This document shows, in pieces, positions 4,851-22,024 of a DNA stretch of 64,000 nucleotides. The DNA is from Echinicola vietnamensis DSM 17526 (GTDB lineage: Bacteria; Bacteroidota; Bacteroidia; Cytophagales; Cyclobacteriaceae): assembly GCF_000325705.1 (NCBI RefSeq), contig NC_019904.1, forward strand, positions 3,288,001 through 3,352,000, read 5' to 3'. Made by a program: the position numbers and the translations under genes. Each line of letters starts with the position of its first letter. The first letter of the stretch is position 1. The notes below the pieces were generated by a model. It saw only the letters and a program-made list of their open reading frames with translations, searched no databases and was not told where the DNA came from.

Positions 4851-4921
4851 GGTGTACAAGGCCATGTGTGGATATTCCACCTTGTATCACCGTGGTAACA
4901 GGCAGTAATCATGCACCTGTT
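4851..4921 (+). promoter_or_regulatory. Two consecutive hairpins in the susC leader
   Basis: Arm GGTGTACAAGG (4851-4861) pairs with CCTTGTATCACC (4880-4891) with a single bulged base. AACAGG (4896-4901 area) pairs with CCTGTT just downstream. They end about 45 bp before the chosen susC start, so they probably sit in the 5' untranslated RNA. susC leaders in Bacteroidetes are known sites of post-transcriptional control; a role here is inference. Confidence 0.4.
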
Positions 4922-4964
4922 TGGAAAATGGAGTATTAACCTTAACCCAAAATCTATTAATTAC

Positions 4965-7900
4965 ATGAAAGAAAAATTACTAAGAAATAGCAGTTTGATT
5001 GTTATCCTGCTATGCGGTTTGGTGTTTTCTGCTGCTGCGCAATCGCGTCAGGTAGTGGAAGGCACCGTAAAAGAAAAGGATTCCGGGCAGCCCATACCCG
5101 GGGTCAGCATTCTGGAAAAGGGCACTACCAATGGAACCGTCACTGGTATTGACGGTGAATTTAGACTGGAAGTTACCGGCGATAATCCAGTTCTACGTGT
5201 GAGCTTTATCGGTTATAAGACACTGGAGACAGAAGTAGGAAACAAGAGTGACTTTGACTTGCACTTGGAAAGTGAGCTTGGCGACCTGGAAGAAGTGGTG
5301 GTCGTCGGCTATGGCCAGCAGAAGAAGGAATCGATTACCGGATCTGTGGCCAATGTCACGAGTCGCGACATCGAACAAGTGCCGACCGCCACAGTGGGTG
5401 GCGCTTTGGCAGGTAAACTGCCGGGCCTCTCTTTTCGCCAGCCTGATGGTCGTCCCGGGGCAGGGGCTCAGTTGCGTATCCGGAATTTGGGCAATCCACT
5501 TTACGTAATAGACGGTATCCAAAAAGACGAAGGACAATTCAATAACCTGGCTCCTGGGGATATCGAAAGTATCACGATCTTGAAAGATGCTTCTGCGGCG
5601 GTTTACGGATCCCGTGCTGCCAACGGCGTGGTGGTGGTAACCACCAAAAGAGGTAGCCGCGGGGAAGCACCCCAGATCAGCATCAATGGCTACTACGGCA
5701 TTCAGAACTGGTCACGGTTTCCAGAAGGCGTAAATGGTTACGAGTGGATGCTGGGACGTGCCGATGCAGACATGAACCAGTTTGGAAGTACCAATATCAC
5801 TCGTGAGGAGCTTGACAAATGGCAAGCAGGTACTGAATATGGCTATCGGTCTTTTGACTGGCGGGACTTTATAATCCAAGGTAATGCCCCACAGAGCAAT
5901 ATCAGTGCAAGTGTATCCGGGGGATCTGAGAAAACAAATTATTACTTGGCCATTACGCGATTTGATCAGAAATCAGTGTTTAGTGATGAATTTGAGTTTA
6001 ACAGGACAAACCTTCAGTCCAATATTACTACAGACGTAACTGATCGATTAACGATCGGCTTACAGTTGAATGGAAGGTTGGAAAACCGTGAAAATCCTGG
6101 CGTACCGGGTGGGGATGATTATTGGCAGCCAAGATTTGCCTTGTTCAGAAACCGCCCTACTGAGCGGCCATATGCCAATGATAATCCGGATTATCCGGCA
6201 AATATCAATAATATCGAAACCAACTGGGCCTTGCTAAATTATGACCGGACAGGATTCTTTACCAATTATTGGAAAAACCTACAGACCAACTTTACGGCAG
6301 AGTATGATCTTCCCATAGAAGGGTTGAAGGCAAAAGGGCTATATTCCTATTATTTTGCTGATAACTATGTGAACACCTTTGAATATACTTATGATGTATT
6401 TGACTATATCCCTGAGGATGATGAATATGTCAGGACAGGTGGTAACGACAACCCTTATCGAGACAGAAACCAGCGGAAAATAGAGGAGACAGTTACGCAA
6501 TTCCAACTGAATTATGATAGGGTATTTGCCGAAAATCATAAGGTGGGTATTCTCGCCTTATATGAGCGTATCCAAAGAAGAGACTATAGAAACTTCATCC
6601 ATTCTGTACCTACTAATAATTACCTTTCTTTGGTGCAATTTGCAGACATGGACCAATACGACGATTATGACTATGAGGAAGCCAGGATTGGTTATGTAGG
6701 GCGTATCAATTATGAATATAAAGGGAAGTACCTATTGGAAGTTTCGGGAAGGTATGATGCTTCTTGGAAATTCTCGCCAGATATGAGGTGGGGATTTTTC
6801 CCGTCCGTTTCTGCTGGCTGGAGGTTAAGTGATGAGGTGTTTATGGATAATATTTCCGCGAAAACCAATTTGGATGAGTTAAAGCTACGGGTGTCCTACG
6901 GGGAATTAGGAGATGATGATATTGATATTGGACCTTTTGATTACATAAGAGGATATAATTACGGTGTGTCCACGGTTATTTTGGATGGTGAAAATGTCCA
7001 GGGGTCTAGAAATACGGGACAACCGATCGATAACCTTTCTTGGTACACGAGTAAAATGTTTGACGTGGGCTTGGACTTCTCTTTTGGTGCTGGAAAGATT
7101 ACCGGTACGATCGATTATTTCCATCGCAAAAGGGATGGTTTGAGAGATATCAAAGACGACGTTTTCCTTCCGCTTGAATTGGGCTATGGCCTGACCGATG
7201 AGAACCTCAGCAGTGATGCTACCCTTGGCGGGGACGTAGGAATAAACTATAACGGAAAGGTTCAGGACCTCACCTTTAGGATCGGCGGTACTTTTGGATA
7301 TGCCCGTGGCAAGTTTTTGAATTCTTATAATCCTGCTTTCAGCAGTAGCTGGAACCATTACCGAAATTCTGGTGAGAACAGATGGTATGGTATTTTTTGG
7401 GGGTATGAAACCATTGGACAGTTCCAGTCCCAAGAAGAAATCGATACCTATCCTGTAAACATTGATGGCCAAGGAAACGGAACGTTACTGCCAGGTGATT
7501 TGATCTATAAGGATGTCAATCAAGATGGCAAAATCGACGGTTATGATGAAAGGCCCATTGGTTACAGTTTAGATGGTACGCCTAGCATAAGCTATGGATT
7601 AAACATGTACTTTAACTATAGGAACTTTGATTTGACCATGGATTTTTCTGGAGGTTCTTTGGCTTCTTATAACCAAAACTGGGAGATGAGGTGGCCTTAT
7701 CAAAATGGCGGTAACCTCCTGGCCTATATGTATGACGACAGGTGGCACCGTGAAGATCCCTACAACCTGGACAGTGAGTGGATCCCCGGGGAAAATCCTC
7801 CCTTAAGGTATAATGCAGGTGGCCACAGTAACTACAACAGGAATTCTACTTGGTGGCTGACCAATGTGAAATACATCAGGATGAGGACGGCTTCCATTGG

Positions 7901-8090
7901 CTATACGCTGCCTCCCAAGGTGCTGAGTAAGCTGAAGATTGAGCGGGCAAGGGTGTACTTCACCACTTATAACCTGTTCTCTATTGACAATGTCCACCAG
8001 TTTGGTATCGATCCGGAAGTGAGGGATGAAAACGGTTTGCAGTATCCGCAAAACGTGAACATGAACCTAGGGTTTAATTTGACCTTCTAA
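4965..8090 (+). CDS. SusC/RagA-family TonB-dependent outer-membrane transporter
   Basis: Imports oligosaccharides across the outer membrane with its SusD partner, powered by TonB. The start at 4965 gives a clean signal peptide (MKEKLLRNSSLIVILLCG, cleavage after AAAQ); an upstream in-frame ATG at 4911 would add 18 residues before it. Domains: carboxypeptidase-regulatory-like beta domain about 30-110 (GQPIPGVSILEKGTTNG); the SusC motif EEVVVVGYGQQKKESITGSV; TonB plug about 118-230 with YGSRAANGVVVVTTKRG; then the beta-barrel to the C-terminal NLGFNLTF. At 1041 residues it is of normal length. It is followed after 13 bp by susD. Confidence 0.95.
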   Translation: MKEKLLRNSSLIVILLCGLVFSAAAQSRQVVEGTVKEKDSGQPIPGVSILEKGTTNGTVTGIDGEFRLEVTGDNPVLRVSFIGYKTLETEVGNKSDFDLHLESELGDLEEVVVVGYGQQKKESITGSVANVTSRDIEQVPTATVGGALAGKLPGLSFRQPDGRPGAGAQLRIRNLGNPLYVIDGIQKDEGQFNNLAPGDIESITILKDASAAVYGSRAANGVVVVTTKRGSRGEAPQISINGYYGIQNWSRFPEGVNGYEWMLGRADADMNQFGSTNITREELDKWQAGTEYGYRSFDWRDFIIQGNAPQSNISASVSGGSEKTNYYLAITRFDQKSVFSDEFEFNRTNLQSNITTDVTDRLTIGLQLNGRLENRENPGVPGGDDYWQPRFALFRNRPTERPYANDNPDYPANINNIETNWALLNYDRTGFFTNYWKNLQTNFTAEYDLPIEGLKAKGLYSYYFADNYVNTFEYTYDVFDYIPEDDEYVRTGGNDNPYRDRNQRKIEETVTQFQLNYDRVFAENHKVGILALYERIQRRDYRNFIHSVPTNNYLSLVQFADMDQYDDYDYEEARIGYVGRINYEYKGKYLLEVSGRYDASWKFSPDMRWGFFPSVSAGWRLSDEVFMDNISAKTNLDELKLRVSYGELGDDDIDIGPFDYIRGYNYGVSTVILDGENVQGSRNTGQPIDNLSWYTSKMFDVGLDFSFGAGKITGTIDYFHRKRDGLRDIKDDVFLPLELGYGLTDENLSSDATLGGDVGINYNGKVQDLTFRIGGTFGYARGKFLNSYNPAFSSSWNHYRNSGENRWYGIFWGYETIGQFQSQEEIDTYPVNIDGQGNGTLLPGDLIYKDVNQDGKIDGYDERPIGYSLDGTPSISYGLNMYFNYRNFDLTMDFSGGSLASYNQNWEMRWPYQNGGNLLAYMYDDRWHREDPYNLDSEWIPGENPPLRYNAGGHSNYNRNSTWWLTNVKYIRMRTASIGYTLPPKVLSKLKIERARVYFTTYNLFSIDNVHQFGIDPEVRDENGLQYPQNVNMNLGFNLTF

Positions 8091-8103
8091 AATGAGACTG
8101 ACC

Positions 8104-9969
8104 ATGAAAAAAATCATATTAAGTATATGCGCATGCGTAGCGTTGTTTACCGCATGTAACGATGAGGAATTCCTGAGTCGAGAGCCGCAGAATATCCTGT
8201 TGGATGATCAGGTTTGGGAAAGTGAGGATTTGGTGCTGTCTGTTTTGGCAGACCTATATAATAGAATTCCCGATTATCAACAGCTGGAGAACTGGTGGAA
8301 TTATACCAATTTTGATGAAGCATTTGCTTCCAATGCTGGTGATTACTGGAGACACCAAAACCAGGATTATGGTTATGGTGATTGGGGCATGTGGGACTAC
8401 GGATTTATCCGTGACCTTAACCTCTTCATAGAGAGTGCCGAGGCGGCTGATCAGCTTGACCCGAATGTAAGGGACAGGTTTATTGCCGAGGCCAAATTTA
8501 TCCGTGCCATGTCTTATTTTGAGCATGTCAAAAGAATGGGCGGTGTGCCGTTAATCTTGGAATCCTTGGAGTATGATTATAGCGGAGATCCTACTTATTT
8601 GCAATATCCCAGGGCAAAGGAGCATGAGATATATGATTTTGTGATTGAGGAGATGGAAGCCATTAAAGGGGACTTACCAGATGGTGGCACTGTATCCAGG
8701 GCAACAGTAGGAGCGGCCTTGGCATTGGAGGCCCGAGCGGCCTTGTATGCTGCCTCTATAGCTAACTACGGACAAACCACTCCTAATGTGTCCCTCCCCG
8801 GTGAAGAGGTGGGTATTCCGGCCAGCATGGCAGATGGATACTATACGACGGCTCTGAGTGCTGCTGAAGAACTCATGGGATTAGGAACCTACGAACTGTA
8901 CAATAATGACCCTGATCCTTCCGAAAACTTTACCAATATTTTCCTGAACAAATCAGCGAATAACGAGGTGATTTTCGCAAAGGATTATTTGGTGCAGGCC
9001 AGAACACACGGGTTTACCATTGAGACGATCCCAAGGTCACTTAGGGAGGAGAATACGTTAGGTGGGAAGCTAAACCCTTCATTGAATTTAGTACAGTCTT
9101 ATGAGCTGTTGGACAATACTTTTGCACCATTGCCGACGACTGACCAAAATGGAAATCCGATCTATTACGATAATCCTGAGGATATTTTTGCAGGAAGAGA
9201 TCCGCGATTAGCCGGTACTGTGATCCTTCCAGGGACTACATTTAGAGGAAGTGAAGTAGATATTTGGGCGGGATGGAAAGCTGAGGACGGAAGCTTGATT
9301 ACTTCCGATCAACTAGGCGGAAGAGGCGAGCTTCCTAACGGCGAAAGTGCTCAGCTAGTAGGCTTTGATGGTCCAATACCTAACCTGGAGTGGTCAGCAC
9401 AAAATGGGTTTTATATCAGAAAATTTGTGGATACCCAGGTGGGTTCAGGGCAACGTGGTACAAGGAGTTCGGTTTGGTGGATTCGTTTCCGTTATGCTGA
9501 AGTTTTGCTGAACGCTGCTGAGGCGGCATTCGAACTTGGAGATAATGCTAAAGCTGCCGAATACATGAACATGGTGAGAAGGAGGGCAGGAATGCCAATT
9601 GATCTGGCACCTTCTGAAATTACCTTTGACCGGATTATTCATGAGCGAAAGGTGGAGCTTTGTTTCGAAAACCATATTCTTTGGGATTACAAACGTTGGA
9701 GAATCGCCCACCAGATATGGAATGGTGAGGCCGTGCCGCTTACCAATAACCCCGGTAATGCGCAAGCGATCAGCACCCGTGTATTTGGACTGAACCCCTA
9801 TAAAGTTTATGCCCCAGGTACTCCAAACCATGAAAAATGGATGTTTGAAGAGTTTTTACCGACTCCGGTATTTAATGCTCACAGGTTCCGTTTGGGTAAT
9901 TATTATTCTCGAATAGGGGACAATGTACTGAACGGCAATCCTAAGATTATCAGAAACCCTAACCATTAA
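8104..9969 (+). CDS. SusD/RagB-family surface glycan-binding lipoprotein
   Basis: Cell-surface lipoprotein that caps the SusC channel and binds the glycan. The start at 8104 (MKKIILSICACVALFTAC) places the lipobox Cys at about residue 18; the frame is open to an ATG at 8092, which only adds MRLT. TPR-like helical SusD fold throughout: FIAEAKFIRAMSYFEHVKRMGGVPLI in the N-terminal half, and WIRFRYAEVLLNAAEAAFELG plus VRRRAGMP in the C-terminal half, all typical of the family. 621 residues. It lies directly behind susC and 17 bp before the DUF3823 gene. Confidence 0.95.
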   Translation: MKKIILSICACVALFTACNDEEFLSREPQNILLDDQVWESEDLVLSVLADLYNRIPDYQQLENWWNYTNFDEAFASNAGDYWRHQNQDYGYGDWGMWDYGFIRDLNLFIESAEAADQLDPNVRDRFIAEAKFIRAMSYFEHVKRMGGVPLILESLEYDYSGDPTYLQYPRAKEHEIYDFVIEEMEAIKGDLPDGGTVSRATVGAALALEARAALYAASIANYGQTTPNVSLPGEEVGIPASMADGYYTTALSAAEELMGLGTYELYNNDPDPSENFTNIFLNKSANNEVIFAKDYLVQARTHGFTIETIPRSLREENTLGGKLNPSLNLVQSYELLDNTFAPLPTTDQNGNPIYYDNPEDIFAGRDPRLAGTVILPGTTFRGSEVDIWAGWKAEDGSLITSDQLGGRGELPNGESAQLVGFDGPIPNLEWSAQNGFYIRKFVDTQVGSGQRGTRSSVWWIRFRYAEVLLNAAEAAFELGDNAKAAEYMNMVRRRAGMPIDLAPSEITFDRIIHERKVELCFENHILWDYKRWRIAHQIWNGEAVPLTNNPGNAQAISTRVFGLNPYKVYAPGTPNHEKWMFEEFLPTPVFNAHRFRLGNYYSRIGDNVLNGNPKIIRNPNH

Positions 9970-9986
9970 GGATAAAAGAAGAACAC

Positions 9987-10691
9987 ATGAAAAAGAACAT
10001 AAAATATCTTGCTGGACTTTGCCTAATGGCTTTGGGCATGAGTTCTTGTGAATATGATAACTACGATGAGCCCAAGCTGCTATTCGATGGGAATATTGTA
10101 TACAACGGTGAGCCCATTGGCGTAAGTTATAATGACGTTTACTTGCAGCTTTGGGAAGAGGGATGGCAGACTTTCGGAAACATTGGCGTGGCCATTGATC
10201 AGGACGGTTCGTTCAGTTCCCTGTTGTTTGCGGGAGATTACAAGTTGATCATCCCTGCAGATCAAGGGCCATTTATGAATTTGACCAACCAAGCATCCGG
10301 CTCCGATACCATTCCATTGAACATCAATGGCAGCATGAACATGGACATCGAGGTGCTTCCTTATTATATGATCCGAAACGTAGATATTTCGGGCAACAGT
10401 AATGAGGTGACCGCCAATTTTGGCTTGGAACAAATTATTACTGGGGACAATGCCAGAGGGGTAAACGAAGTAGTCCTTTACCTGAGCAAAACCACCTTCG
10501 TGGATGGTCGTACCAGTGTGAGCTCCGCTAGATTAGGGGGAGGAGATATTGCCGATATGGCTGATATTCAACTGACCACAGAAGTTCCTGACATGACCCC
10601 TACGCAAGGGTACATCTTTGCACGGGTAGGCCTCAGGATCAATGGGGTGGAGGACATGTTGTTCTCCCCAATTGAGCGGATAGATTTCTAA
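9987..10691 (+). CDS. DUF3823-type PUL lipoprotein
   Basis: Lipoprotein of 234 residues with lipobox SSC (Cys about 21). The sequence (PKLLFDGNIVYNGEPIG, LQLWEEGW, FAGDYKLII, VLPYYMIRN) fits the DUF3823 family, two-beta-sandwich proteins encoded right after susCD in many PULs and thought to be surface glycan-binding or accessory proteins in the SusE/F position. It shares an operon with susD (17-bp gap). The exact ligand is unknown. Confidence 0.85.
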   Translation: MKKNIKYLAGLCLMALGMSSCEYDNYDEPKLLFDGNIVYNGEPIGVSYNDVYLQLWEEGWQTFGNIGVAIDQDGSFSSLLFAGDYKLIIPADQGPFMNLTNQASGSDTIPLNINGSMNMDIEVLPYYMIRNVDISGNSNEVTANFGLEQIITGDNARGVNEVVLYLSKTTFVDGRTSVSSARLGGGDIADMADIQLTTEVPDMTPTQGYIFARVGLRINGVEDMLFSPIERIDF

Positions 10692-10704
10692 TTTTGAAGT
10701 ATAA

Positions 10705-10873
10705 CGTCATTGCGAGGAGCTTACGACATGGCAATCCTTTTTTCAAATGGAAAGATTGCTTCACTTCACTGTCGTTGCGTTCGCAATGACGTTTACCAGT
10801 CCATCATAGCGAGGAGGTAGGGAGCGTTCTCTTCTTAATGAATACGAGATGGCTTCACACCGCCCGCAATGAT
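10705..10873. repeat. CGTCATTGCGAG-type intergenic palindromic repeat, two degenerate units
   Basis: CGTCATTGCG (10705-10714) is matched by CGCAATGACG (10782-10791), with inner arms GCAATC and GATTGC. A second, more decayed unit (AGCGAGGAGG ... GAGATGGCTTC ... GCAATGATG) follows at about 10804-10873. Repeats of this type are scattered in intergenic DNA of many bacteria. It lies between the DUF3823 gene and the GH43 gene, so it may form a hairpin in the operon mRNA. Confidence 0.75.
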
Positions 10874-10917
10874 GTCTTGTGCTGGAATTATAATGACCAA
10901 TTGACTTAAAAATCCAT

Positions 10918-11982
10918 ATGATGAAACCACTATTATCAACGCTTTTTTACCTAGCGGCCATGTGTAGCATAGCAGCTTGTTCGAGCAATGCCCAGGAGCC
11001 TGTTCCTGAACCTGTGGATGATGATGAAGACCTACAAGGCCAATACACTAATCCCGTTTGGGAGCCCGTTTTGGCTGATCCCACCGTGGTGAAATCAGGA
11101 GACACTTTTTATGCCTATGGCACCGAAGACAATTGGGGCGATGAAGGAGGCTATCACCTTGTGCCCGTGATCAAATCAAAAGACTTAATCCATTGGGAAT
11201 TGGTAGGGGATGCACTGTCCTCCAAGCCCACATGGAAGCCAGAAGGAGGCATTTGGGCGCCAGATGTCACCAAAGTAGGCAACCAATATTTTATGTACTA
11301 TTCTTTTTCTACTTGGGGCGATGCCAATCCAGGCATTGGTTTGGCCATTGCGGACAATCCCGAAGGGCCTTTTGAGGACTATGGGAAAATTTTTGACTCC
11401 CAAAGTATCGGTGTAAACAACTCCATTGACCCTTTTTATTATGAAGAGGATGGTCAGAAATACTTGTTTTGGGGGAGTTTTAGAGGACTATACATGATCA
11501 AGCTCACAGAAGATGGAAAGGCTACCGAAGGAGAGAAAGTCCAAGTAGCCGGCGATCACCTGGAAGCCACTTATATTCATAAGAAAAATGGTTATTATTA
11601 CCTGTTTGGTTCCTACGGCTCATGCTGTGAAGGAGCCAACAGCAGCTATCAGGTATGGGTGGGAAGATCAGAAAAACTGGAAGGCCCCTACCTGGACAAA
11701 GCAGGAAACAGGCTTCTGGACGGCCATTATGGAGAATTGGTGGTCAAGGGAAATCTGGGCGATAGCGGTTTTGCAGGCCCAGGTCACAATGCAGAAGTCG
11801 TTACCGATATAGAAGGAACTGACTGGCTGATTTACCATGGCATGCTAAAAAGCCAACCCAGAACGAATAATGGTACCAATAGAAGGACACTGCTGATCGA
11901 TCCCATCCTCTGGAATGACGGTTGGCCGATGCTCTTCAGACAAGAACCAAGCACTACCGCTAACGATGGACCGGTGTTTTAA
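10918..11982 (+). CDS. GH43-family lipoprotein (arabinan endo-1,5-alpha-L-arabinosidase / arabinofuranosidase-like)
   Basis: Five-bladed propeller glycosidase predicted to cut alpha-L-arabinan or release arabinose or xylose residues. Lipobox SIAAC (Cys21), so probably surface or outer-membrane anchored. Catalytic triad of family 43 visible: Asp54 (LADPTVV, base), Asp171 (SIDPFYY, pKa modulator) and Glu216 (LEATYI, acid). The stretch GSYGSCCEGANSSYQVWVGR and the late HNAEV are characteristic of endo-arabinanase-like subfamilies. 354 residues is normal length without extra modules. It follows the CGTCATTGCG repeat and precedes the PHP-like gene by 28 bp. Confidence 0.9.
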   Translation: MMKPLLSTLFYLAAMCSIAACSSNAQEPVPEPVDDDEDLQGQYTNPVWEPVLADPTVVKSGDTFYAYGTEDNWGDEGGYHLVPVIKSKDLIHWELVGDALSSKPTWKPEGGIWAPDVTKVGNQYFMYYSFSTWGDANPGIGLAIADNPEGPFEDYGKIFDSQSIGVNNSIDPFYYEEDGQKYLFWGSFRGLYMIKLTEDGKATEGEKVQVAGDHLEATYIHKKNGYYYLFGSYGSCCEGANSSYQVWVGRSEKLEGPYLDKAGNRLLDGHYGELVVKGNLGDSGFAGPGHNAEVVTDIEGTDWLIYHGMLKSQPRTNNGTNRRTLLIDPILWNDGWPMLFRQEPSTTANDGPVF

Positions 11983-12010
11983 GCAATTATTAATGATCCC
12001 AATAAAGCCT

Positions 12011-14098
12011 ATGTATCTTTTAAAATACTTGATTTCCGGTTTTTTATTTTTATTGCCCTTTTTGCTCAATGCTCAAGTAGCACCTGTTCTATCTGATTTT
12101 GACAAGAAAGGGGAAGCTTCGGTAGAAAGTACCACTAATGGTTTGCTCGTTTCATGGCCTGCTGGAAATAACCAACTGGGTAAACTCACTATTAACACCA
12201 AAAGTGGTCAGCCGCTTTTTGAATCATTCCAGTTGGAGCAGGCGGGAGAAGCTGTCACGATTGCAAAAAACATTGACCCAATGTTTTTACTAACGGTTGG
12301 CGAGCGTGATTTGAGCAAGGAAAGTGGTTGGAATATCTTTTTTGACCGGACCGCCTATAAACCTCATGAAACCCACCTGGTGCAGTTGGAAAAATCCCAC
12401 GTCGAGGTATTGAGTGATGGACAGCGATCGGTTATTAAAGTAAGCGATCTGACTGCAGGGAATTTTTCTGGCTGGTTAGAAGTGACGCTTTACCACGGCA
12501 GTCCCTTGGTCAATATCGCCGCAGTCATGCACACCGAAGAGGATGCCAAGGCGATCCTTTATGATGCTGGCTTGGTGGCGCAGGATCAAGTTTGGAATGA
12601 AATATTTTGGTCTGATACTGAAGGGTATTTGCAGTCGAAGGCCACAAATCAGGATATTAATGAAAGTGAAAACCTAGCCGTAAAGTATAGGACAATTATT
12701 GGCGAAAGTGAGCAAGGGAGTATGGCGGTGTTTCCGGCACCACACCAATTTTTTTACCCATTGGACAATGCCTATAACCTGAAATATGTATGGTCTGGTG
12801 AAAATTATAGGAATAAAATAGATGGTTTTGGGATCGGTATCAGGCATGACCTGATGGGGGATAATAGACATGTCCCATGGTTCAATGCTCCCCCAAAGAC
12901 CGATCAGCGGTTAAATTTCTTTGTTTACCTCAGTGCTACCAAAGATGGACAGGTCATGGAAGACGTAAAGAAATTTACCAGAAATGATCAGTACAAACCA
13001 CTGCCAGGCTATAGGACCATGGCCAGCCACTTTCATACGGAACACATGGACGATATCCTCACCCACAAACCCGTACCGGATATTCCGGGGCATGTAAAAG
13101 CTCTGCGCACTATGGGGGTGAATATCATGCATCTGGGAGAATATCATTTGGCCGGAAATCCGCGAGATCCCGGCCCAAGGAGATTGCCGGAGCTGGATTT
13201 GATGTTTGCTGAATGTGAACGATTGAGTACGGCGGATTTTCTGATGCTTCCAGGGGAAGAACCTAATTGCCACTTCGGTGGTCACTGGATGAATATTTTT
13301 CCGAATCCTGTTTATTGGATCATGTCGAGACAGGACGGAGAACCTTTTGTGGAGGATCATCCCGAATACGGAAAAGTTTACCGTGTGGGAAACAAGGAGG
13401 AAATGTTGCGGCTTTTGGAAGAGGAAAAGGGTTTGGCCTGGACAGCCCATGCCCGTACCAAAGGCTCTACAGGCTATCCGGATGCCTACAAGGATGAAGC
13501 CTTCTTCCATTCGGACCGCTTCAATGGTGCGGCCTGGAAATCCCTTCCTGCAGATCTTTCGAATCCTAATTTGGGCAGAAGGGTACTGAAACTGATGGAC
13601 GATATGGCCAATTGGGGCGAACGAAAATACGTAATCGGTGAAGCAGATCTCTTTAAATTGGAACCGGATTATGAAATCTATGGCAATATGAATGTCAATT
13701 ACCTCCAATTGGATAAATTACCCAAGTTCGAGGATGGATGGCAACCGGTGCTGGATGCGATGGAATCCGGAAAATTCTTTGTGACCACAGGAGAAGTGCT
13801 TTTACCCACTTTCAGTGTCAATGGCAAAGGAAGTGGCGAGGTGCTGCAATTGGAAAAAGATGGAAAAGCCAGCATTAAGGTGAATGCCCAATGGACTTTT
13901 CCCCTCCAATATGCAGAAATTGTTTCCGGAGATGGAGAACAGGTCTATAGAGAGACGATTGATTTGAAGGATACCCAGGCCTTTGGAACAGAAGCATTTA
14001 CTTTTGAGCTGGATTTGACGGGGCGCTCTTGGGTGCGATTGGAGATATGGGATGCTGCTGTTAACGGCGCCTTTACACAGCCAGTGTGGATAGAATAG
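12011..14098 (+). CDS. Secreted PHP-like metallohydrolase of the PUL (CehA/McbA-like)
   Basis: 695 residues from an ATG at 12011 that gives a signal peptide (MYLLKYLISGFLFLLPFLLNAQ); the frame is open further upstream but would overlap the GH43 gene. The first ~330 residues look like a beta-sandwich. The rest carries PHP-type metal-binding motifs: HFHTEH (His340, His342, His345), GEYH (His379), EEPNCHFGGH (His421, His425) and TAHART (His480). PHP-superfamily enzymes are usually phosphoesterases; the substrate in a glycan locus is unknown. It could act on a phosphorylated or esterified decoration, or be a lyase/hydrolase of a type not yet described. Co-directional with the PUL. Confidence 0.7.
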   Translation: MYLLKYLISGFLFLLPFLLNAQVAPVLSDFDKKGEASVESTTNGLLVSWPAGNNQLGKLTINTKSGQPLFESFQLEQAGEAVTIAKNIDPMFLLTVGERDLSKESGWNIFFDRTAYKPHETHLVQLEKSHVEVLSDGQRSVIKVSDLTAGNFSGWLEVTLYHGSPLVNIAAVMHTEEDAKAILYDAGLVAQDQVWNEIFWSDTEGYLQSKATNQDINESENLAVKYRTIIGESEQGSMAVFPAPHQFFYPLDNAYNLKYVWSGENYRNKIDGFGIGIRHDLMGDNRHVPWFNAPPKTDQRLNFFVYLSATKDGQVMEDVKKFTRNDQYKPLPGYRTMASHFHTEHMDDILTHKPVPDIPGHVKALRTMGVNIMHLGEYHLAGNPRDPGPRRLPELDLMFAECERLSTADFLMLPGEEPNCHFGGHWMNIFPNPVYWIMSRQDGEPFVEDHPEYGKVYRVGNKEEMLRLLEEEKGLAWTAHARTKGSTGYPDAYKDEAFFHSDRFNGAAWKSLPADLSNPNLGRRVLKLMDDMANWGERKYVIGEADLFKLEPDYEIYGNMNVNYLQLDKLPKFEDGWQPVLDAMESGKFFVTTGEVLLPTFSVNGKGSGEVLQLEKDGKASIKVNAQWTFPLQYAEIVSGDGEQVYRETIDLKDTQAFGTEAFTFELDLTGRSWVRLEIWDAAVNGAFTQPVWIE

Positions 14099-15085
14099 GA
14101 GAAGTAGTAAGATGAAAGTAGTAAGTATCAAGATACAAGATAAAAGAGCAAAGACTGATATAGGGGACTGGGGGGAGGTTAGGAGGAGTTATACGTCAAA
14201 GGTTTTGCCGGCTCTCTGACTCGGTGCTGGCAAGCTCTCAGGAAGAGGTAAGCGTAAAAATATCAAACTAAATTAAACCATATTAAAATGATTTTTAATG
14301 TTAAAAAATGGGCTCAGCTTGTGATGATGGGAGGAATGGCCACTTTGATAAGCTGTCAAAATGCTGCCCAAGAGCAATCAAATGACCTATCACTGGAGGA
14401 ACATGCCATCCGTCCGCCAGCTTTTCCACTGATTACCGTTGATCCGTACTTAAGTGTATGGAGCATGGGAGATGAGCTTTCTGGTGATGCCACCCGGCAC
14501 TGGACGGGGGTGGCCAATGATCTGCAAGGAATCATCCGAGTGGATGGAGAGCCCTACTACTTCTTGGGCGAGGAATTGACCGAAACGAAAACGGTGCTTC
14601 CCCTTACAGCCTTGGAAGCGTCATGGAGCTATTCCTTTCAAGCGCCATCTTCTGGGTGGAAATCACTTGATTTTGAAGAAGATAGCCATTGGAAAACCAC
14701 CAAAGGAGCTTTTACCAATGGTGATGATAGTCCTGCTCCCAACCAATGGGACACGGAAGATATATGGGTTAGAAGGAGCTTTGAACTAGAGAATGCTGAC
14801 TTTTATGACCTGTTGCTGAATATTCATCATGACGATAATATCAAGGTGTACCTGAACGGGGTCCTCGCCTATGAAAAAGAAGGATGGGTCAGCAGGCCAG
14901 AGACCGTAGCGATTACCGAGGCAGCCAAAAAAGCCCTCAGAGAAGGGGAAAACCTATTGGCCATCCACTGTCAAAATACTACAGGTGGGGCATTTTTGGA
15001 CGCAGGATTGGTAGAAGTGCTTCAGCCAAGTGTGCGTATTGGCCAAGCTGAGCAGACTTTTTCCAAAGTCAATGCCACGGAGACC

Positions 15086-15090
15086 TTGTA
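15086..15090. repeat. Target-site duplication, left copy (TTGTA)
   Basis: Identical to 16222-16226. The pair brackets the IS and matches the 3-9 bp duplications known for IS982-type elements. Confidence 0.93.
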
Positions 15091-15208
15091 ACCTGAGTTC
15101 GATTAATAATTCCCCATAAATTGTCCGCCAAGAAACGTTCAAGCAAGAATAACACAAAAATTAATGTTAAAATTTATTTTATAAAAAAATTCACATATAT
15201 AGATAATA

Positions 15209-15265
15209 TTTTCTATGTATTTAATTAAAAACTATAATTAGAAACATAGAAAAAGCCATGTTTTT
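15209..15265 (+). promoter_or_regulatory. Hairpin leader upstream of the IS transposase
   Basis: TTTTCTATGT (15209-15218) pairs with ACATAGAAAA (15244-15253). The second arm can alternatively pair with ATGTTT just downstream, followed by a T run. The two folds exclude each other. This resembles devices that stop read-through transcription from flanking DNA reaching a transposase; the role is inference. Confidence 0.35.
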
Positions 15266-15310
15266 TCGTTATATTAAAGTGTTGAAGTTCAATACATTAA
15301 CTACTAAAAC

Positions 15311-16207
15311 ATGACCTTAACTGACTCCAAAATTACCGAAATTTTCTATCTTATCGATGAATTCTGCATCCAATTTGAAAAATCCACTGAAAAACATATT
15401 CTTGGAAACAGGCCCAAGAGAAGGCCCAGAATGAGCCTGAGCGAAGTCATTACCATTATGGTGATGTTCCATACCGGGGGATTCCGAAACATGAAACACT
15501 TTTATCTCTATTTTATCAAAGTCCATAAAAAACACCTTTTCCCCCAGACCGTTTCCTACAACAGGTTTGTTGAACTGATGCAATCCGCCACCCTTCCGAT
15601 GACTATATTCCTGAAAACCTGTTGTTTAGGAGAGGGGACAGGTATTGCGTTTATCGACTCAACTCCGATCAGGGTATGCAAAAACAAAAGGATAAAAAGG
15701 AACAAGGTTTTCAAAGATATTGCCCAGGTGGGCAAATCCACCATGGGATATTTCTTCGGCTTCAAGCTCCACCTGGTCATCAATGACAAAGGGGAGCTGT
15801 TAAACTTTGTGGTCACCCAGGCCAATGTTGATGACAGGGAGCCGCTTAGGAACAAAAGTTTCGTAAATAACCTAAAGGGGAAATTATATGCGGACAAAGG
15901 CTATGTTTCAAAGGATTTGACCGAATTGTTGTTTTCAGACGGGCTTCACCTAATTGCCAATATTAGGAATAATATGAAGAATGTCCTTATGGAAATGAAG
16001 GACAAAATCATGCTCAGAAAACGATCTGTTATTGAAACGGTAAATGATGAATTGAAAAACATGTGTCAGATCGAACATTCCAGGCACCGCTCTTTTGGAA
16101 ATTTCATCACCAACATGATTTCAGGACTCATTGCCTACTCATTTTTCCCTAAAAAGCCCGCAATCAAATACCAAACAGTCCAAACTAACCAAATAGCCCT
16201 GTTTTAA
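15311..16207 (+). CDS. IS982-family DDE transposase
   Basis: 298 residues, full length for the family. Landmarks: SLSEVITIMVMFHTGGFRNMKHFY near the N-terminus; IAFIDSTPIRVCKNKR (first catalytic Asp, about residue 117); GFKLHLVINDKGELLNF; LYADKGYVSK (second Asp); and RKRSVIETVNDELKNMCQIEHSRHRS (Glu region). It catalyses cut-and-paste movement of its element. It begins 220 bp inside the left end and stops 14 bp before the right end. It sits inside the glutaminase-A-like gene of the PUL. Confidence 0.95.
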   Translation: MTLTDSKITEIFYLIDEFCIQFEKSTEKHILGNRPKRRPRMSLSEVITIMVMFHTGGFRNMKHFYLYFIKVHKKHLFPQTVSYNRFVELMQSATLPMTIFLKTCCLGEGTGIAFIDSTPIRVCKNKRIKRNKVFKDIAQVGKSTMGYFFGFKLHLVINDKGELLNFVVTQANVDDREPLRNKSFVNNLKGKLYADKGYVSKDLTELLFSDGLHLIANIRNNMKNVLMEMKDKIMLRKRSVIETVNDELKNMCQIEHSRHRSFGNFITNMISGLIAYSFFPKKPAIKYQTVQTNQIALF

Positions 16208-16221
16208 AATCGAACTCAGGT

Positions 16222-16226
16222 TTGTA
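16222..16226. repeat. Target-site duplication, right copy (TTGTA)
   Basis: Identical to 15086-15090. Its first three bases, TTG, are also the first possible start codon of the downstream gene half. Confidence 0.93.
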
Positions 16227-18019
16227 TGCTTTTGATGCTGGAGCGGTTTCCCTGAATGTGACCTTTACCGCCCCGATGCTTCCCGATAATCTGGAAGTCA
16301 TGACCAGACCTGCCAATTATGTTACTTTTGAGGTAGCGGCCGAGGATGGTAAGGAACATGATGTGGAAGTTTACTTCAGCGCTGCGGGAAATTTGGCGGT
16401 AAACACCATGAACCAACAAGTGACTTGGGAGCGTCCAAACATTTCAGGCTTACAGACCATGAAAATAGGGACCAGCACCCAGCCCATACTGGAGAAAAAG
16501 GGTGATAATGTGCGCATTGATTGGGGCTACCTTTACTTAACGGCTGCAGATCAAGAAAATATTACTTCAAAAATTGACGTAAACGCCAATAGCATAACCA
16601 CTTTTGTTGAAAATGGACAATTAGGCGGGCCTGATGCCGATCATAAACCAGTGGCCTTAAATGATCAAATGATCACTTCAGCTTTTGCATTTGACTTTGG
16701 CAAAGTAGGGGAGGAACGAAAAGAAAATTTCTTGACCTTGGCCTATGATGATTTGTACGCGGTGCAGTTTTTCAATAAAAACCTCAAAGCTTGGTGGAAA
16801 AAATATGGTATGAGCACCGAAGAAATGCTTCAGGCAGCACAAACCGATTATGCTAAACTGAAAGCAGCGAGTGAGCAGTTTGACCAGCAGATTTACCAAG
16901 ATGCTTATGCAGCCGCAGGAAAGGAATATGCGGAGATGTGTGCTTTGGTGTACCGACAGGCCGTAGCGGCCCACAAGACTGTCGAAGGGCCGAATGGTGA
17001 ACTGTTTTTCTTTTCCAAGGAGAATTTCAGTAACGGATCTATCGGGACGGTGGATGTGACGTATCCATCGGCACCTTTATTTTTGATTTACAATCCAGAC
17101 TTGTTGAAAGGAATGATCGAACCGATCTTCTATTACAGTGAAAGTGGGAAATGGGCCAAGCCTTTTCCAGCCCATGATGTGGGAACCTATCCGCTGGCCA
17201 ATGGCCAAACTTATGGGGAAGATATGCCGGTAGAGGAAGCTGGGAACATGCTGCTGCTGACCGCTGCCATTGCCAAGGTGGAAGGAAATGCGGATTATGC
17301 CCAGCAGCATTGGGATGTCATGACCACTTGGGTGGAATACCTGGCCAAAGAAGGCTTTGACCCTGCCAATCAGCTGTGTACCGATGATTTTGCGGGTCAT
17401 TTGGCTCATAATGCAAACCTTTCGGTGAAGGCGATTTTGGCGATAGCTGCTTATGGCCAAATGGCGGAAACATTAGGGAAGACAGCGGAGGCTGAGAAGT
17501 ACACGGCATTGGCCAAGGATTTTGCTCAAAAGTGGATGGATAAAACAGCAGATGGAGACCATTATAGTTTGACTTTTGACAAAAAAGGTACTTGGAGCCA
17601 GAAATACAATTTGGTATGGAACAAGCTCTTGGGGCTCGATATTTTCCCTGAGGAAGTGGCCCAAAAAGAAATCGCCTATTACCTCACCAAGCAAGAAGCC
17701 TACGGTTTGCCTTTGGATAGCCGAAAGATGTATACCAAATCCGATTGGGTGATTTGGACAGCGGCGATGGCCGACGATGAGGAGGCAGAAAAAACCCTGA
17801 TCAAGCCGATGTTTACCTATATCAATAAGACGCCAAACAGGATCCCGGTAAGTGATTGGCATGAAACGACCAATGCCGAATCAGTGGGCTTTAGGGCCAG
17901 ATCTGTAGTCGGAGGATACTGGATGCCCGTGCTAAAGGATCAATTATTGAAAAACTAAGCGGTTGTCGGATATGAGTGGTTTTATCATTTCACATCTCAC
18001 ACCTCAAATCTCACTACTA

Positions 18020-20149
18020 ATGACTCAATACTTAAAACCCAAAATACTTACCAGTGCAGTGCTGCTTGCTCTACTCTTTTCGTGTGGAAAGGGAGAGCAG
18101 GCCACTGAAGTATCGGTAGTGCAGCGAATGGATACTACCGCTACCAACACACATTATATCAGTAATCGGGCCCCGCTAAAGCCCAGTGCCTTGATCAAAT
18201 TGCCTGTAGGCTCGGTAAAGCCTGAAGGGTTTCTGAAGGAATACCTGCTGCGCCAAAAGAATGGTCTGACGGGGCATCTTGGGGAAATCAGTGCTTGGCT
18301 ACAAAAAGAGGACAACGCTTGGCTTAGTAAGGACGGTGAAGGCGATTGGGGCTGGGAAGAAGTACCATATTGGCTAAAGGGATATGCAAACATTGGGTAT
18401 TTGTTGGAGGACCAGCAGATGATCGACGAGGCCAAAATTTGGTTAGAAGGCACCATAAACAGTCAGCGTGCAGATGGTAATTTTGGCCCCAAGCATTTTG
18501 AAGGTGAAAACCAAGATTTTTGGGCCAATATGATCATGCTTTACTGTCTCCAGTCTTACTATGAATATTCCCAAGACGATCGTGTGATTGATTTGATGAC
18601 CCAGTATTTTAAGTTTCAGCTTACCGTACCCGATGAGCATTTTCTCACCGGATATTGGCAAAAGCTTCGTGGTGGCGATAATCTACACAGTGTTTTTTGG
18701 CTGTATAATAGGACTGGAGCGCCCTTTTTACTTGAGTTGGCAGAAAAAATCCACCGGAACACTTCCGATTGGGTAGGAAGAGACCATGACCTAGAGGCTA
18801 TTCATAACTACTACGAAGTACGTGATGGAGGAGAAGTCCCTGACTGGTACCGTGACCTGATCGATTGGCACAATGTGAATCACGCACAGGCTTTCAGGGA
18901 ACCTGCCCAATACTATTTGCTCAGCCATGAACCAAAGCATTTGAGGGCTACATATGATAATTTTGATATTATCCGGGAGCATTTTGGCCAAGTGCCAGGA
19001 GGGATGTTTGGTAGTGATGAAAATGCCCGTCCAGGCTATGCGGATCCTCGTCAAGGAATCGAAACTTGCGGTATGGTGGAGCAGCTGAATTCCAATGAGC
19101 ATTTACTGCGTATTACCGGAGATCCATTCTGGGCTGATCATGCCGAGGAGGTCGCCTACAATACTTACCCTGCTGCAGTGATGCCTGATTTCAAGTCCTT
19201 ACACTACATTACCTCGCCAAACATGGTTTTGCTGGATGCTGAAAACCACGCGCCTGGCATTGCCAATAGTGGCCCTTTTTTAATGATGAACCCCTTCAGT
19301 TCCCGCTGCTGCCAGCATAATCATGCACAGGGGTGGCCTTATCTAGTAGAGAACCTTTGGATGGCAACCCCGGATAATGGAGTCGTTGCAGCGATCTATG
19401 GCCCCAGTACTGTGAAGGCTAAAGTTGGCGATGGGCAGGAAGTGACCATTCAGGAAAAGACCCAATACCCTTTTCGTGGGCAATTGGAGTTTACGATCGG
19501 AACGGCAAAGCCTACGAAGTTTCCGCTTTATTTGCGTATTCCAGCGTGGACCACTGGTGCTACAGTACGTATTAATGGGGAGACCCTGAAAGAACATGTT
19601 ACGGGAGCTGGATATCTTAAACTGAATCGTGAATGGACATCAGGTGATAAGGTAACCTTGACCTTGGGCATGGAGCTTCAGGTGAAGACGTGGGAGAAAA
19701 ACAGCAATAGTTTTAGTGTAAGTTATGGACCATTGACCTATTCACTTTTGATCGGAGAGGATTATATCCGAAAAGAAAGTGATGAAACGGCCATTTGGGA
19801 TTCCAAATGGCAAGAAGGGGTGGACACCAAAAAATGGCCATCTTGGGAGGTGCGTCCGACGACCGATTGGAATTATACTTTGGTATTGGATAAGGATAAT
19901 CCTGCCGCTTCACTGGAAGTAGAAGAGCGCCCTTGGCCTGAGAATGATTTTCCGTTTACGCCTGATAATGTGCCTGTTTTGATCAAGGCAAAAGGAAAGC
20001 AAATCCCACAATGGACACTAGACCAATACGGATTGGTGGGAGAATTGAAGGATTTACCGGCCAGTTCCGATCAGCCGGTCACTGACGTTACGCTCATCCC
20101 AATGGGGGCAGCGCGGCTACGTATCACGGCATTTCCCAATGTTAAATAA
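18020..20149 (+). CDS. GH127-type beta-L-arabinofuranosidase-like lipoprotein (DUF1680)
   Basis: Predicted to remove beta-L-arabinofuranose from arabino-oligosaccharides or glycoproteins. The ATG at 18020 gives a lipoprotein signal (LLFSC, Cys22); upstream codons to 17963 run through low-complexity spacer and are unlikely to be translated. The zinc/nucleophile set of the family is visible: Glu348 and Cys350 in GIETCGMVEQ, and Cys430-Cys431 in SSRCCQHNHAQGW, matching the Glu-x-Cys plus Cys-Cys arrangement known for bifidobacterial HypBA1. The (alpha/alpha) barrel spans about 60-450, followed by beta domains. 709 residues. It is 61 bp after the split gene, so its expression may be affected by the IS. 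A related family such as GH146 is possible. Confidence 0.87.
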   Translation: MTQYLKPKILTSAVLLALLFSCGKGEQATEVSVVQRMDTTATNTHYISNRAPLKPSALIKLPVGSVKPEGFLKEYLLRQKNGLTGHLGEISAWLQKEDNAWLSKDGEGDWGWEEVPYWLKGYANIGYLLEDQQMIDEAKIWLEGTINSQRADGNFGPKHFEGENQDFWANMIMLYCLQSYYEYSQDDRVIDLMTQYFKFQLTVPDEHFLTGYWQKLRGGDNLHSVFWLYNRTGAPFLLELAEKIHRNTSDWVGRDHDLEAIHNYYEVRDGGEVPDWYRDLIDWHNVNHAQAFREPAQYYLLSHEPKHLRATYDNFDIIREHFGQVPGGMFGSDENARPGYADPRQGIETCGMVEQLNSNEHLLRITGDPFWADHAEEVAYNTYPAAVMPDFKSLHYITSPNMVLLDAENHAPGIANSGPFLMMNPFSSRCCQHNHAQGWPYLVENLWMATPDNGVVAAIYGPSTVKAKVGDGQEVTIQEKTQYPFRGQLEFTIGTAKPTKFPLYLRIPAWTTGATVRINGETLKEHVTGAGYLKLNREWTSGDKVTLTLGMELQVKTWEKNSNSFSVSYGPLTYSLLIGEDYIRKESDETAIWDSKWQEGVDTKKWPSWEVRPTTDWNYTLVLDKDNPAASLEVEERPWPENDFPFTPDNVPVLIKAKGKQIPQWTLDQYGLVGELKDLPASSDQPVTDVTLIPMGAARLRITAFPNVK

Positions 20150-20191
20150 TAAAATTAATTTTCTATCATACTTATTTAAAACCTATAAAAC

Positions 20192-22024
20192 ATGAAAAAG
20201 TCACTATTGCTTGGTGCAGGATTGCTTTTGGCCCAGTCATTTGTGTGGGCGCAAGATGGCAATTGGAAACCAGCTGAAGGAAAGATCATGACCTCCTGGG
20301 CGGAGGAAGTGGACCCAGCGAATGTCCATCAAGAGTATCCTCGGCCACAATTGGTCCGGGAGGATAATTGGCAAAACTTAAACGGCTTATGGCAGTATAA
20401 AATCCAGGCAAAAGGGGAGGAAGCACCTTCTTCCTTTGATGGGGAGATTTTGGTGCCGTTTGCTGTGGAGTCGGCCCTTTCCGGAGTTGGCGAACGTGTA
20501 GGAGCAGAAAAGGAATTGTGGTACAAAACCACGTTTGATGCGAAAAAATCCAGTAGAGAACGCGTATTGCTTCATTTTGGAGCGGTTGACTGGGAAGCAG
20601 AAGTGTTTGTGAATGGCCAGTCTGTGGGCATCCATAAAGGTGGCTATGCCCCGTTCTCTTTTGACATCACCGATGCACTGGAAGGCAGAAAGGACAATGA
20701 GCTGGTGGTAAGGGTATGGGATCCCTCAAATGATGGCCCACAGCCTAGGGGGAAGCAAATTAAGAATCCCCATGGCATTTGGTATACTCCGGTAACCGGG
20801 ATTTGGCAGACTGTTTGGACGGAAAATGTGCCTACCAGTTATATCGCCAATACTAAAAATACACCGGATGTAGATGCCGGAACCCTTACCGTGGAGACGG
20901 AAATTGAAAATGCGGAATCAGGCCAGATGGTTCAGGTGAAGGCTTTTGCTGATGGGCAAGTGGTGGCTGAAGAAAAAGTGGAAGCGGGGCAGCCTGCAGT
21001 ACTGCACATTGACAATCCCCAACTGTGGGAGCCAGGAAATCCTTTCTTGTACGACCTGGAGGTGAGTTTGGTAAAAGGTAATCGAGTGGTGGATGCCACG
21101 GAGAGCTATGCTGCCATGAGAAAAGTGAGCATGGAGCTCGATGAAAATGGCGTTCAGCGCATGTTGGTAAATGATAAGTTCATTTTCCAATACGGCCCAC
21201 TGGATCAAGGATGGTGGCCTGATGGGCTTTATACGGCTCCTAATGAAGAGGCCTTGTTGTTTGATATTGTCAAAACACAGGAGATGGGCTTTAACATGAT
21301 CCGTAAGCACGTAAAAGTGGAGCCTGCTCGATGGTATTACCACTGTGATAGGCTGGGCATGTTGGTGTGGCAGGATATGCCTAGTGGAGACATGGGCAAT
21401 CAGTGGAATCCACGTCCGGGAATCGTGGGAGTAGGAACAGAAAGGGACAGAACTCCTGAGTCGGAACAAATCTTCAGAAATGAATGGAAAGAGATCATGG
21501 ATGATTTCCATAATTTTCCCTCCATCATTGTTTGGGTGCCATTTAACGAAGCTTGGGGGCAATTTAAAACCGAAGAGATCGTAAAGTGGACCATGGACTA
21601 TGATCCTAGCCGTTTGGTAAATGGAGCCAGTGGTGGAAATTTCTTCCCTGTCGGTCAAATAATGGATTTGCACAATTATCCAGAACCAGCCATGCCTAAT
21701 CCTAAATTTTTCGGCAAGGACATGGTCATTACGCTTGGGGAATTTGGTGGACTGGGATTACCTGTCGAAGGCCATACCTGGCAAGAAAAAGATAACTGGG
21801 GCTATCAAAGCTTTAAGTCTGTGGAGGACCTTGAAAATCGCTATGCCGAGATGATGAGTTCACTTGCTAAATTGATCCCGAGGGGACTTTCAGCTGCAGT
21901 TTACACCCAAACTACCGATGTGGAAGTGGAGACCAACGGATTGATGACCTATGACCGAAAGGTGATTAAGTTGACTCCGGAGTTCTTGAAAAAAGTACAC
22001 GAACAGCTGTACGATGCAAGATAA
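20192..22024 (+). CDS. Glycoside hydrolase family 2 protein
   Basis: 610 residues with signal peptide (cleavage near VWAQ). Order: jelly-roll sugar-binding domain about 60-200 (LNGLWQYKI, WEAEVFVNGQSVGIHKGGYAPFSFDIT); immunoglobulin-like domain about 205-315; TIM barrel from about 320, with GFNMIRKHVKVEPARWYYHCDRLGMLVWQDMP. Acid/base Glu453 (VPFNEAWGQ) and nucleophile Glu517 (TLGEFGG) are present. Family 2 covers beta-galactosidase, beta-mannosidase, beta-glucuronidase and alpha-L-arabinopyranosidase activities; the PUL context favours removal of a galactose or arabinopyranose cap, as inference. Last gene of the PUL, ending before a strong terminator. Confidence 0.88.
   Translation: MKKSLLLGAGLLLAQSFVWAQDGNWKPAEGKIMTSWAEEVDPANVHQEYPRPQLVREDNWQNLNGLWQYKIQAKGEEAPSSFDGEILVPFAVESALSGVGERVGAEKELWYKTTFDAKKSSRERVLLHFGAVDWEAEVFVNGQSVGIHKGGYAPFSFDITDALEGRKDNELVVRVWDPSNDGPQPRGKQIKNPHGIWYTPVTGIWQTVWTENVPTSYIANTKNTPDVDAGTLTVETEIENAESGQMVQVKAFADGQVVAEEKVEAGQPAVLHIDNPQLWEPGNPFLYDLEVSLVKGNRVVDATESYAAMRKVSMELDENGVQRMLVNDKFIFQYGPLDQGWWPDGLYTAPNEEALLFDIVKTQEMGFNMIRKHVKVEPARWYYHCDRLGMLVWQDMPSGDMGNQWNPRPGIVGVGTERDRTPESEQIFRNEWKEIMDDFHNFPSIIVWVPFNEAWGQFKTEEIVKWTMDYDPSRLVNGASGGNFFPVGQIMDLHNYPEPAMPNPKFFGKDMVITLGEFGGLGLPVEGHTWQEKDNWGYQSFKSVEDLENRYAEMMSSLAKLIPRGLSAAVYTQTTDVEVETNGLMTYDRKVIKLTPEFLKKVHEQLYDAR

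Follow-up and report, generated by a model that had tools for sequence, protein, structure and literature searches.

Introduction

Insertion sequences of the IS982 family are described, in the part of PMC7335449 that is accessible to us, as elements of 845-1282 bp (mean 996 bp), whose ends begin with AC and which have inverted repeats of 11-32 bp and direct repeats of 2-10 bp. The gene treated here belongs with the DUF4964-DUF5127-GtaA_6_Hairpin proteins. A Streptomyces relative that shares the four-domain architecture had, according to the available portion of PMC9668830, weak activity as a beta-galactosidase and no glutaminase activity that could be detected; its authors suggested a glycoside hydrolase role.

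In this work we analysed an Echinicola genome consisting of one contig of 5,608,040 bp, and within it a stretch of 64 kb (genome positions 3288001-3352000), which we call the window; coordinates are those of the window unless a contig is named. A PUL gene of the window is interrupted by an element which shares with the IS982 family the transposase model, a length (1131 bp) inside the family range, the AC start (here ACC), 14-bp inverted repeats and 5-bp direct repeats, and differs in exceeding the mean length of the family and in its 220-nt leader. The two halves of the gene carry the three domains in the same order as the orthologues, which the window gene differs from in being interrupted. 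We are almost certain that an active IS982-family element multiplied recently to seven copies in this Echinicola lineage, and that one of them inserted at TTGTA inside the PUL gene and split it, with the exported enzyme most likely lost. The first-pass annotation of the window had read the event correctly, while its interpretation is supported in part. The event is well supported and ordinary: the mobile element and the gene are both of known kinds.

Results

Insertion site and interrupted gene

The layout of the locus is shown in Table 1; the coordinates, duplications and reading frame that had been proposed for it were right to the base. The first half starts with the ATG at 14288, its codon 267 is the TTG at 15086, and the TAA that follows (15089-15091) combines TA from the target with the A at which the element begins. 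In the second half the frame resumes at 16222 and the stop codon ends at 17958; this half has no signal sequence. As its start the ORF finder chose the TTG at 16222, which is putative and by itself no sign of expression. When joined, the halves amount to 266 + 578 = 844 codons. The element apart, neither half contains a frame-breaking change, in agreement with the first-pass reading, and DUF4964, DUF5127 and the six-hairpin domain, divided between the halves, each score above their Pfam cut-offs. The earlier reading had also presented the exact restoration of the frame as evidence: the halves do join in frame, but this is automatic and carries no extra weight, because any insertion whose sole effect on its target is a duplication will leave in-frame halves.

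Table 1. Features of the interrupted PUL locus (window coordinates)
Feature	Position	Strand	Basis
Upstream PUL genes: TonB-receptor (SusC-like), SusD, DUF3823, GH43, CehA/McbA-like	4911..14098	+	profile matches
5' part of interrupted gene, 267 codons with DUF4964, and TAA	14288..15091	+	Pfam PF16334, 82 bits
Left copy of 5-bp target duplication, TTGTA	15086..15090		sequence
IS982-family insertion sequence, 1131 bp, one of seven identical genome copies	15091..16221	+	sequence comparison
Left inverted repeat ACCTGAGTTCGATT	15091..15104		end comparison
AU-rich hairpin in the 220-nt untranslated leader of the element	15209..15253	+	RNA fold of 15091-15320
IS982 transposase, 298 aa, open, full length	15311..16207	+	NF033520 272.1 bits; PF13612 239.2 bits
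Right inverted repeat AATCGAACTCAGGT	16208..16221		end comparison
Right copy of target duplication, TTGTA	16222..16226		sequence
3' part of interrupted gene, 578 codons, DUF5127 and whole six-hairpin domain	16222..17958	+	PF17168 202.3 bits, PF16335 477.7 bits
Downstream PUL genes: GH127, GH2	17963..22024	+	profile matches

The length of about 844 residues had been called normal for the family, and six congeners indeed have 842-845; the window protein is one residue shorter around position 39, well away from the insertion site, which is ordinary length variation. That the gene is part of a PUL was borne out by the neighbouring SusC-like/SusD, GH43, GH127 and GH2 genes, the CehA/McbA-like gene having reached 69.7 bits, under its model cut-off of 80. 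Rfam and tRNA scans within the 64-kb window gave no hits, nor did PADLOC.

This layout suggests the following sequence of events. One copy of the element would have entered TTGTA within the gene, doubling the 5 bp; translation ends after codon 267, at the stop formed by the duplication and the first base of the element, and the six-hairpin domain stays behind as a 578-codon frame lacking both signal sequence and DUF4964, so that the exported enzyme would most likely be lost.

The element and its relatives

Membership in the IS982 family, claimed in the first-pass annotation, agrees with the transposase profile (the NCBIfam cut-off of NF033520 IS982 is 130 bits), the length and the ends. The terminal repeats and the target duplications are as perfect as had been stated: the inverted repeats match at 14 of 14 bp, with the ends diverging beyond, and TTGTA stands on both sides. 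Compared with the end consensus that we used for the family, AC(N)6T(N)5TT, both ends have the AC and the T, and positions 15-16 are TT at the right and AA at the left end. The DDE criterion for the family was an atypical motif without K/R 6-7 residues after the E; in the transposase the candidate residues, assigned by eye, are D116, D195 and E242, in which case there is a K at E+7. The leader hairpin has a perfect 10-bp stem and the fold of 15091-15320 has a z-score of -2.37, none of 200 shuffles being equally stable; the hairpin was not evident in five aligned relatives.

Among 245 genomes of the taxonomic family of the host (two candidates scored per genome) the closest DNA was 78% identical to the element, and because of this distance it is probably not a copy of any element named in the table of PMC7335449, as far as the accessible part of that source goes. 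At least 35 of these 245 genomes had DNA matches and at least 47 of 395 genomes sampled in the class had protein matches to the transposase; the host genome is part of both counts, as are partial or weak matches, and both are lower bounds, since few candidates were scored per genome (two, and up to six, respectively). The closest transposase protein (97%) is encoded on short contigs, the longest being 1,250 bp. An element of Lunatimonas lonarensis (1141 bp) has identical 14-bp inverted repeats, 85% transposase identity and a similarly long leader; it differs in that the leader hardly aligns and in the flanking repeat found, which is 2 bp.

A remnant of the right end, 122 bp long and 97% identical to the element, was found in another Echinicola genome (L053:4000-4121; G005:C1:996190-996311). 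Close kin of the element were therefore present in the genus earlier, and its acquisition need not be as recent as the insertion.

Among the relatives (L084-L163), the length of the direct repeat seems to track the type of the inverted repeat. Ends of the ACCTGA type (one left end being ACTTGA) had 5-bp repeats in 15 of 17 copies, the others having 4 and 8 bp, and ends of the ACGTGA type had 7-bp repeats in 8 of 11, the others having 6, 10 and 10 bp. These figures come from a boundary search of 59 of the 80 relative loci, which gave an exact flanking repeat of at least 4 bp in 28 and none in 31; the score favoured repeats of at least 4 bp and some copies are from the same genome. Because a single genome contributes four of the 17 ACCTGA-type copies, a Fisher test overstates the association. 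The pattern may be partly known already, since PMC7335449 gives direct-repeat ranges per transposase cluster in a figure.

The gene in other Echinicola genomes

The orthologue was found in nine of the ten other Echinicola genomes searched (not in G002); there the frame is open over 843-877 aa, and identity to the second half is 73-90%. In six loci compared in detail the sequences matching the two halves abut to the base in four (G008, G010, G001 and G009) and are separated by one mismatched codon in the other two (G005 and G003). DNA alignments across the site have no gap within 30 bp in any of the six, and in three of them no gap anywhere; the longest extends over 790 bp at 79.9% identity. 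The joined protein thus has neither gap nor shift at the junction relative to its intact homologues, which run through the site, as the earlier reading had predicted, and damage at the junction is excluded by the contiguous site in the six congener loci. Eight query pieces had the same order in all six, by which arrival of the gene together with the element can also be rejected. In a protein search with the second half, only the window's own protein exceeded 90% identity among the best 120 of 7,999 matches, and the next seven named matches, one unnamed one excepted, were full-length Echinicola proteins of 807-844 aa.

The first-pass annotation had also named fixation of the element at this site across related strains as an observation that would speak against its proposal. 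Between species, the level covered by a comparison of one genome per species, such fixation is absent: a full-length copy was found in none of the ten congeners, and this excludes an insertion common to the genus. Compared with the three nearest congeners, dN/dS is 0.055-0.082 in the first half and 0.023-0.035 in the second, at dS values near saturation; by this measure both halves appear still to evolve as coding sequence.

Several relatives are named glutaminase, DUF4965 or glutaminase family protein in the databases. In the light of the Streptomyces enzyme, as far as the accessible report describes it, the label "glutaminase" is doubtful for the interrupted gene. By analogy its six-hairpin domain is probably a glycoside hydrolase, and the PUL context would fit such a role. 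Searching the PDB by sequence for a relative of the protein gave no match. The strain has an intact paralogue of 846 aa, 56% identical over the second half, about 55 kb upstream, and seven of the ten other congeners have both the orthologue of the interrupted gene and the paralogue.

Copies of the element and age of the insertion

The genome contains seven copies of the element, 100% identical across all 1131 bp, and each has perfect flanking repeats of its own, exactly 5 bp long. An assembly artefact is excluded, as the copies occupy seven sites and the duplication differs at every one. Seven identical copies point to a recent burst. With no difference in 7,917 bp, the 95% upper limit is 3.8e-4 changes per site (2.7e-3 for the window copy alone); neither value takes account of selective constraint on the transposase or of gene conversion, which may occur. 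The PUL genes measured have dS values of at least 0.73 relative to the three nearest congeners, several being near saturation. Set against this divergence, the identity of the copies would place the insertion in a very small last part of the history of the lineage, with the limit that gene conversion between copies could prolong their identity. The very young age proposed earlier is therefore supported by the identical copies, the perfect 5-bp duplications and the lack of a full-length copy in the congeners.

Discussion

The youth of the insertion had led to the suggestion, in the first-pass annotation, that the culture may be mixed or the site revertible, i.e. that a subpopulation has the uninterrupted gene or that precise exit of the element switches the gene. 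With the 5-bp repeats the site could be restored exactly, and excision of this precise kind is on record for a different element, IS5 (PMC8944449, in the part available to us). Within the reach of the full texts cited here, we found no literature specific to IS982 excision. Between repeats of 5 bp, exact loss of an element should be a rare event. The single contig carries the element in place and the sequence contains no sign of mixture or reversion. Youth does not imply such a state, which we consider very unlikely.

The insertion could also be old and fixed in the species, with gene conversion keeping the copies identical, and it must be noted that the species is represented by one genome only. 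The two halves have accumulated no further damage, no full-length copy occurs in the ten congeners, and the seven duplications, which lie outside the element, are, though short, all perfect; we give an old insertion hardly any credence. Equally improbable is an adaptive or regulatory insertion, in which the element drives the downstream part of the gene, or else GH127 and GH2: the transposase is oriented like the PUL genes, and other IS982 elements raise the expression of neighbours from promoter regions (PMC7335449, accessible part), but the scans for promoters argue, weakly, against it. A sigma-70-type scan of 14000-18100 gave 11 matches, compared with 6.8 in shuffles, and none of them fell within the element's final 200 bp. 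The Bacteroidota-type promoter pattern occurred nowhere in the element and twice elsewhere in the window, with 2.4 expected.

A recent insertion of an actively multiplying element is thus the reading we prefer. It documents an element of the IS982 family that is intact and recently active in the genome of a marine member of the Bacteroidota, and it cautions against crediting this strain with a functional copy of the PUL enzyme. Genome-wide mutant fitness data exist for the E. vietnamensis type strain (PMC7311316, as far as its available part goes); if our strain is this type strain, the phenotypes of this PUL in those data would come from a background in which the gene is broken. The general understanding of such elements and genes is unchanged by the insertion.

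The target sites of the seven copies are worth a comment. Read in the orientation of the element, the duplications start with T in all seven and end with A in five. Four copies (L047, L048, L050 and L051) stop 3-18 bp short of an ORF end; of the others one is at codon 8 of a 234-aa frame with a putative start, one is intergenic, and the window copy is the sole case in mid-gene. Positions this near an ORF end make up 2.7% of all positions and 3.4% of the T...A positions pooled from 34 loci, the gene calls being the longest non-overlapping ORFs, uncurated. With the T...A background the chance of at least four of seven is 4e-5, and if only non-coding or gene-end positions were tolerated, the chance of four of six is 0.004. 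A real gene end is supported by congener homologues at L051 and L047, and roughly at L050, where congener alignments stop at residues 266-272 of frames of 301-309 aa; at L048 the remaining 101 aa of a 104-aa ORF had no Pfam match. Among the copies in relatives 1 of 27 was near a gene end (4/7 vs. 1/27, Fisher P 0.003), where 27 of 28 copies were used, L150 being omitted for its imperfect ends and the repeat of L109 set to 5 by hand. We found no literature specific to the target preference of IS982 within the reach of the full texts cited here. That the element, or the tolerance of the host for it, favours the last codons of genes is in our opinion unlikely; the comparison is post hoc and the relatives have only 1/27, therefore survivor selection or small numbers may explain the pattern.

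At L052 (5065-5814) the copy at codon 8 leaves a 249-aa frame which starts inside the end of the element and enters the gene, and the element may thus have replaced the start of this gene.

One copy of the element lies 76 bp from the edge of a block of about 16.4 kb (L202 and L203, G000:C1:5011963-5028373), which is 98.2-98.7% identical at the DNA level to a segment of another Echinicola genome (G003:C1:3839240-3855650) that is without the element. At the insertion site, by contrast, identity between the window PUL and G003 is only about 70%. The block carries another PUL, with SusC/SusD-like, FecR, SASA esterase, GH88-like and anion transporter genes, and from its sequence similarity it looks like a recent horizontal exchange.
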